38,539 nucleotides of DNA from Dehalococcoidia bacterium (GTDB lineage: Bacteria > Chloroflexota > Dehalococcoidia > GIF9 > AB-539-J10): positions 1 through 38,539 of the forward strand of contig JAGGYM010000003.1 in NCBI GenBank assembly GCA_021162545.1. Direction: 5' to 3'. The notes under the pieces were generated by a model, which made no database searches, was not told where the DNA came from, and saw only the letters and a list, made by a program, of their open reading frames with translations. The translations under genes and the position numbers were made by a program. Below are positions 37,157 through 38,539 of this stretch, piece by piece. The stretch's first letter is position 1. Every line of letters begins with the position of its first letter.

Positions 37157-37924
37157 GTGAAACCAGAAGTTTTTTGCCTGCAAAGTGAAGGCCTTGATCT
37201 CATCGGAGAAATCTATATTCCACTGGGGAATAAACCTCACCCCTCCCTGTGCATCTGCCACGGCATCCCCGCCACCCCATATAGCCCCGATGGTGAAGGA
37301 TATGCTTCTCTGGCACAAAGGTTTTGCGCCGCAGGTTTTGCCACCCTGATCTTCAATTTCCGCGGTACCGGAAAAAGTCAGGGCAATTTCGACATGCAGG
37401 GATGGAGCAGGGACCTGCAGGCTATTCTGGATTTTCTTACCGGCCTTGATGAGGTGGACAGGAACCACATCCATCTCCTCGGTTTCAGTGGAGGAGCAGC
37501 AGTAAGCGTCTACGTTGCCTCTCAAGACCCCCGCATATCTTCTCTAATCGCCTGCGCCTGCCCTGCCGAGTTCAGTATCCTGGCCAACAAAGAAACGCTC
37601 CACTCTTCCATCCAGCATTTCCACGAAATTGGGGCCATCAAAGACGAAGACTTCCCTCCCTCACCCGAAGAATGGCTGGAAGGATTCGAGACAGTTTCTC
37701 CAATTAAATGGATAGACAAGATTTCTCCCCGCCGGTTGCTCCTGGTCCACGGGGACGCCGATGAAGTAGTGCCCCTGGAGCATGCATACAAACTGTATCA
37801 AAAAGCCAGAGAACCCAGGGACCTGGCCATAATTCCTGGAGCCAGGCATAAACTGCGTTTGGATAAGGCCGCAATGGACACCGTCCTGGACTGGCTCAAG
37901 AGCAAACAGGCAGGCACAATTTGA
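37157..37924 (+). CDS. Alpha/beta hydrolase
   Basis: 255 aa; CHGIPATPYSPDGEGYASLAQRFCAAGFATLIFNFRGTGKSQGNF, nucleophile elbow GFSGGAA, VHGDADEVVPLEHAYKLY, GARHKL. Confidence 0.9.
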   Translation: MKPEVFCLQSEGLDLIGEIYIPLGNKPHPSLCICHGIPATPYSPDGEGYASLAQRFCAAGFATLIFNFRGTGKSQGNFDMQGWSRDLQAILDFLTGLDEVDRNHIHLLGFSGGAAVSVYVASQDPRISSLIACACPAEFSILANKETLHSSIQHFHEIGAIKDEDFPPSPEEWLEGFETVSPIKWIDKISPRRLLLVHGDADEVVPLEHAYKLYQKAREPRDLAIIPGARHKLRLDKAAMDTVLDWLKSKQAGTI

Positions 37925-38011
37925 CACCTGCCAGTTTGGACTGATAGAATCCCTATGCTTTTGATTGTTCATTTGAATGGTCACTACGAGGGAGAATAAA
38001 GGTCCAGTAGC

Positions 38012-38055
38012 TTTTCCCCCGGCCCCGGTGGGCGCTTTGCATGTAAAGGGGAAAA
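38012..38055 (+). promoter_or_regulatory. Hairpin in the rplU 5' leader
   Basis: TTTTCCCC (38012-38019) pairs with GGGGAAAA (38048-38055), 8-bp perfect stem, ending about 22 nt before the proposed rplU start. Confidence 0.4.
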
Positions 38056-38077
38056 CCATATAAGTGGAGGCATTAAG

Positions 38078-38398
38078 ATTTACGCCATTATTGATCAAGG
38101 CGGCAAACAGTACAAAGTCGCTCTGAACCAGACGATAGAAGTCGAGCGCCTCGATGCACCTCAGGGTGAATCCGTGGAGCTGGGCGAGGTACTGTTCATT
38201 GGAGACACCAGCGATATCCTCGTGGGCAATCCAACTATCAAAGATGCCAAAGTTATGGCCACTTCCCTAGGTGAAGCCAAAGGAAACAAAGTCACGGTGT
38301 TTAAATATAAATCCAAAGTGCGATATCACAGAAAACAGGGCCACCGCCAGATACATACCAGCCTGCTCATAAATGAAATTATCAAGCCCGGAGATTAG
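38078..38398 (+). CDS. rplU: 50S ribosomal protein L21 (proposed ATT start)
   Basis: Translation from ATT 38078: (M)[42 protein letters not shown]...[27 protein letters not shown]. Conserved L21 N-terminus. GGAGG lies 7 nt upstream. No in-frame ATG/GTG/TTG before 38174. Confidence 0.88.
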
Positions 38399-38399
38399 G

Positions 38400-38539
38400 A
38401 TGGCACATAAGAAAGCAGGTGGGAGCATAAGGGGCGGGCGCGATAGTCAGTCAAAGCGCCTGGGGGTAAAAAAATACGGAGGAGAGCAAGTGCGCGCTGG
38501 AAATATTTTGATGAGACAGCGCGGAACGCGCATATTTGC
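38400..38539 (+). CDS. rpmA: 50S ribosomal protein L27, 5' part (truncated by window end)
   Basis: [46 protein letters not shown]; start one base after the rplU stop. Confidence 0.96.

Follow-up and report, generated by a model that had tools for sequence, protein, structure and literature searches.

The window analysed here, a 38,539-nt stretch of a Dehalococcoidia genome (GCA_021162545.1; 1.39 Mb in 67 contigs, G000 below), ends in the genes for ribosomal proteins L21 (rplU) and L27 (rpmA; Table 1). The identity of rplU rests both on its linkage to rpmA and on a full-length match to Pfam Ribosomal_L21p (PF00829; positions 2-99 of 99, 110.9 bits, E 3.4e-32). Inside rpmA, 127 bases of the window's contig (C20, window 38413-38539) are identical to an overlapping stretch of contig C1 (L175:1-127); the two are probably adjacent in the genome, with rpmA continuing on C1.

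Table 1. Features of the rplU-rpmA locus, in window positions
Feature	Position	Strand	Basis and remarks
Promoter-like site TTGACA-18-(TG)TAGAAT	37921..37950	+	Consensus scan; upstream of rplU
In-frame TAA	37997..37999	+	Sequence; closes the rplU frame 27 codons before the start
Shine-Dalgarno (SD) GTGGAGG	38064..38070	+	Sequence; core GGAGG 38066-38070; 7 nt before ATT
Predicted ATT initiation codon of rplU	38078..38080	+	Edge of conservation; kept as ATT/ATC in relatives
rplU, ribosomal protein L21, 106 aa	38078..38398	+	PF00829 and translation
rplU codon 2, TAC	38081..38083	+	Synonymous TAT would give an out-of-frame ATG 4 nt into the gene
GTG, first canonical in-frame start	38174..38176	+	Sequence; its use would lose the conserved N-terminal 32 residues
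rpmA (L27)	38400..38539	+	Normal ATG 1 nt past the rplU stop; truncated where the contig ends

What stands out is the apparent start of rplU, at the very rare codon AUU in place of AUG. The original prediction held that this gene initiates at ATT, and the reading frame bears out the particulars on which it was built: there is no ATG, GTG or TTG in frame between the TAA and the GTG at 38174, the conserved L21 N-terminus lies upstream of that GTG (the Pfam match begins at 38081), and the strong SD stands where it was placed, separated from ATT by the spacer CATTAAG. The codons that follow ATT are TAC GCC ATT ATT GAT CAA GGC GGC AAA CAG. The expected damage to annotation is also seen, as the mechanical list of open reading frames holds only a truncated rplU frame of 74 aa (38174-38398).

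Comparison with relatives strongly supports the ATT start. The rplU start was scored in 168 genomes, 119 from Dehalococcoidia (61 families) and 49 from other Chloroflexota classes. It is AUU (61 genomes) or AUC (7) in 68 of the 119, representing 31 of the 61 families, a count that leaves out L062 and L050, where an ATG lies 1 or 4 codons upstream, and includes L037, in which the start is shifted by one codon. None of the 49 genomes from other classes shows it, all having ATG, GTG or TTG. Within the window's own family 24 of 26 genomes carry AUU or AUC, and the start is also ATT in family f16, represented by complete genomes of 1.4-1.7 Mb (L119, L120, L138). AUG, GTG or TTG serves as the start in roughly half of the families sampled from the class, so AUU is dispensable for rplU; f2, genus g9 of the window's family (f1), f71 and part of f22 are among these canonical lineages. 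Judged by this distribution, the AUU start is a maintained feature, much wider than one genome.

The start codon is coupled to a strong SD. GGAGG precedes 61 of the 68 AUU/AUC genes vs 2 of the 51 rplU genes of the class that start with AUG, GTG or TTG, and it is found in 7 of 49 in other Chloroflexota classes. The association within the class is strong (Fisher p = 3e-23), although this value is uncorrected for relatedness, which inflates it, and supported branches alone provide 2 independent pairs. Five genomes of the class carry the matching anti-SD, CCUCC, in their 16S rRNA; a search of the window's own assembly did not recover the 16S 3' end. Two genomes of genus g9 (L100, L101) and two of f71 (L107, L108) start rplU with GTG or ATG, carry no GGAGG, and lie near AUU users, which makes these lineages natural pairs for the study of compensation between a weak start and a strong SD.

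A second nucleotide-level constraint falls on codon 2, which is TAC in all 67 AUU/AUC genes scored and never TAT. The canonical-start genes of the class use both tyrosine codons here (34 TAC, 12 TAT; p = 8e-6 for the difference), tyrosines elsewhere in these rplU genes are split 124 TAC to 114 TAT, and in 259 genes from the window's genome TAT is favoured in Tyr-Ala pairs (174 to 43 TAC). Ahead of GC, TAT would create an out-of-frame ATG at offset +4, within reach of the strong SD. There is no ATG anywhere from -5 to +14 in the AUU/AUC genes, and the +4 ATG is present in 12 canonical-start genes of the class. We propose that the fixed UAC is explained by avoidance of a competing AUG, as would be expected if ribosomes have only a weak AUU to initiate on and would be drawn off by any AUG nearby.

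Is this a property of rplU or a habit of the genome? The adjoining rpmA starts with ATG (85) or GTG (16) in 101 of the 102 genomes of the class scored, the remaining one being masked sequence. Starts are canonical throughout the S10-spc-alpha cluster of G000 (some 30 genes). A composition-based scan for coding signal ahead of the first canonical start, covering about 346 predicted genes (341 kb of G000, roughly a quarter of the genome), ranks rplU first, with acylphosphatase, prfB and infC as the further clear cases. The idea that AUH starts are in general use across the genome was considered and rejected, given the canonical S10 cluster and rpmA and the few candidates among the genes scanned. 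The prfB-like frame (L177:5091-6132; G000:C3, + strand) has a conserved N-terminal part without an in-frame start; prfB, the gene for RF2, is known for a programmed frameshift that is expected to give exactly this picture. For the acylphosphatase (minus strand of L177; G000:C3:18337-18612) the sole plausible start is ATA, and a conserved odd start was rejected, since most relatives have ATG at or beside the position; this singleton looks like a recent loss of ATG or an error in one genome. An HflX-like frame (L193:18329; G000:C19, + strand) opens right after a TAG with ATA behind GGGGGG, and has an alternative GTG start 11 codons downstream.

The remaining case, infC, is the classical one. Located by tblastn (loci L064-L097 and L141-L169; the gene of the window's genome lies in L094, G000:C49:6500-11500, near base 1820), it starts with ATA (52) or ATC (5) in 57 of the 61 genomes of the class scored and never with ATT, although internal isoleucine codons of infC in the class are evenly mixed. 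In other Chloroflexota classes infC starts with ATA, ATC or ATT. From these counts, infC keeps its known AUH habit phylum-wide, with rplU following suit in Dehalococcoidia alone. The preferred codons differ, AUA for infC vs AUU for rplU, and f2 has a canonical rplU start while its infC stays AUH. The two genes are thus not strictly coupled, because rplU has lost AUU where infC keeps AUH.

Could the AUU start be genuine and still have no regulatory role? It may have arisen once in an ancestor, been compensated by the SD, and persisted by drift or as a simple fixed dampener of L21 output, a view to which we give somewhat less than an even chance. In a tree of L21 the AUU/AUC genes are strongly clustered without forming one clade, and parsimony counts 18 changes, of which at least 2 are forced by supported branches, L21 being too short for firm placement of gains and losses. 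An early gain of AUU followed by several losses would suit this pattern. The losses, recurring in the canonical lineages named above, fit a start that carries no regulation; they usually involve the adoption of a start (AUG or GTG) located 1-3 codons further upstream, with GGAGG lost together. In Escherichia coli, the AUU of pcnB is reported to do no more than limit expression (Binns and Masters 2002, cited in PMC1780047). Against this stands the retention of the codon in 31 families, even though one substitution would turn ATT into ATG. The SD and codon 2 are likewise under constraint at the nucleotide level. Such persistence is not predicted by an origin through drift alone, and a fixed dampener needs no restriction to AUU or AUC.

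Another possibility is that translation starts further upstream, at ATA 38060, at ATT 38072 or at a TTG or ATG found in some relatives, leaving ATT 38078 as an internal isoleucine codon. Some canonical codon does occur before the in-frame stop in 27 of 67 relatives, and in some f16 genomes TTG stands 5 and 7 codons ahead of ATT. The other 40 of the 67 AUU/AUC genes have no canonical codon back to that stop. In 15 of 67 an in-frame stop lies within 8 codons of the start, the closest at 2-3 codons; in L006, for example, TGA stands two codons upstream of ATT. Compared pairwise, the AUU/AUC genomes agree fully in amino acid at codons 1-3 (identity 1.00), and identity falls to 0.05-0.17 at codons -14 to -1, except at -4 and -3, which are the SD. 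In most genes GGAGG lies 6 or 7 nt from the start and in some 8-10 nt, a variable spacing that does not keep the upstream stretch in one frame. ATT 38072 stands only 1 nt from the SD. An internal codon would be expected to be mixed and to include ATA, which is never seen at codon 1, although internal isoleucines of the same genes are 169 ATT, 148 ATC and 116 ATA. An upstream start is therefore highly improbable. What is found, namely no canonical alternative, a well-spaced SD and a codon kept in relatives, is the pattern of AUU/AUC initiation of the infC type, and it makes initiation of rplU at AUU very probable, a weak start that would be paired with a strong SD.

Control by a structured leader RNA, with AUU secondary, would have a counterpart in the Firmicutes L21 leader, a ribosomal-protein leader in Rfam. 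The promoter-like site, which makes 11 of 12 consensus matches (0.3 expected by chance in the consensus scan) and whose TTGACA and TAGAAT align and are kept in a same-genus genome, would give rplU a leader of some 120 nt here. In many relatives, however, a TAnAAT box lies only some 28-40 nt before the start, which leaves almost no leader. An Rfam search of 37600-38539 gave zero matches up to E = 1, the L21 leader included, and the predicted fold of the rplU leader is no more stable than that of shuffled sequence (z = 0.41). The leader reading is accordingly a very unlikely one. Lastly, a sequencing or assembly error hiding a true ATG at 38078, for which the fragmentation of the assembly (67 contigs) might speak, is untenable because the comparison of start codons returned not ATG throughout but the same ATT or ATC codon in 67 other genomes, a same-genus genome and 66 more.

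These considerations favour an AUU start with a strong SD that is old and selectively maintained, with initiation that is likely to depend on initiation factor IF3, an explanation to which we assign a probability of roughly 0.85. The start site, its conservation, its coupling to the SD and the avoidance of a competing AUG are all visible in the genomes compared, whereas initiation with fMet-tRNA at AUU in vivo, discrimination by IF3 and the physiological purpose are inferred. In such a mechanism initiator tRNA would read the AUU on 30S subunits anchored through GGAGG:CCUCC pairing, and a near-perfect GGAGG 6-7 nt upstream would make the weak codon workable. Initiation on the rplU-rpmA mRNA would then depend on IF3 and on initiation fidelity, as at infC. 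L27 may follow L21 by translational coupling, through an rpmA start that adjoins or overlaps the rplU stop (most often at offsets of -11 and +2 nt), so that both proteins would be held at a set level tracking the balance of IF3 and ribosomes.

Is control by IF3 what has been selected? Because IF3 represses non-canonical starts at infC and sigR, rplU initiation should be IF3-sensitive, and such sensitivity fits AUU and AUC codons generally as well as the AUA and AUC starts of infC in the class. Two points count against it: a high ratio of IF3 to ribosomes would lower L21, which is no obvious feedback, and, in the genomes compared, infC is AUH also where rplU is not. By analogy, IF3-dependent control as the selected function is plausible, with the odds evenly balanced. 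The AUU probably serves to throttle or regulate this core gene of the ribosome, and the gain for L21 could be either a regulatory link to the IF3/ribosome balance or a simple fixed limiter. More tentatively, infC (AUA/AUC) and rplU-rpmA (AUU/AUC) might form one IF3-tuned circuit that sets the supply of 50S subunits through L21 and L27. If true, ribosomal protein synthesis would be controlled at the start codon in a circuit kept since early in the class.

The bacterial genes with a characterised AUU start are, to our knowledge, very few, chiefly infC and pcnB. Initiation at AUU is itself already known, and sigR offers a precedent for conserved non-canonical starts in genes other than infC. The open-access literature searched contains no report of rplU with AUU or of infC starts in Dehalococcoides; in RefSeq or UniProt the L21 of Dehalococcoides may already be given this start codon, without comment. 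A core ribosomal protein gene that keeps AUU in about 30 families, together with a matching strong SD and synonymous sites constrained against a competing AUG, would be evidence that selection can actively maintain a poor start codon, and would extend control at the level of the start codon to ribosome production. On the practical side, gene callers limited to ATG, GTG and TTG truncate, misplace or lose L21 in these genomes.

Several known systems resemble this arrangement in part. The Firmicutes L21 leader is likewise a post-transcriptional control point on the rplU-rpmA operon, but here neither a leader structure nor an Rfam match was found, and the odd element is the start codon. The AUU of E. 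coli pcnB (cited in PMC1780047) is comparable as a weak start that limits expression; unlike pcnB, rplU is a ribosomal protein gene, and it shows class-wide conservation and a coupled strong SD. The likeness to infC is closer: it starts with AUU in E. coli and with ATC in Streptomyces, codons against which IF3 discriminates (PMC5472188), and in both genes AUU/AUC is kept over a long evolutionary distance in a gene of the translation apparatus. Unlike the product of infC, L21 is no initiation factor, so there is no direct autoregulatory loop and the IF3 dependence of rplU is drawn by analogy. The Streptomyces sigR gene, which starts with GTC, differs from rplU in its codon, in its confinement to one genus, in encoding a regulatory sigma factor and in that its repression by IF3 has been shown experimentally; like rplU, it carries a lineage-conserved non-canonical start outside infC that had been misplaced in annotation (PMC5472188).
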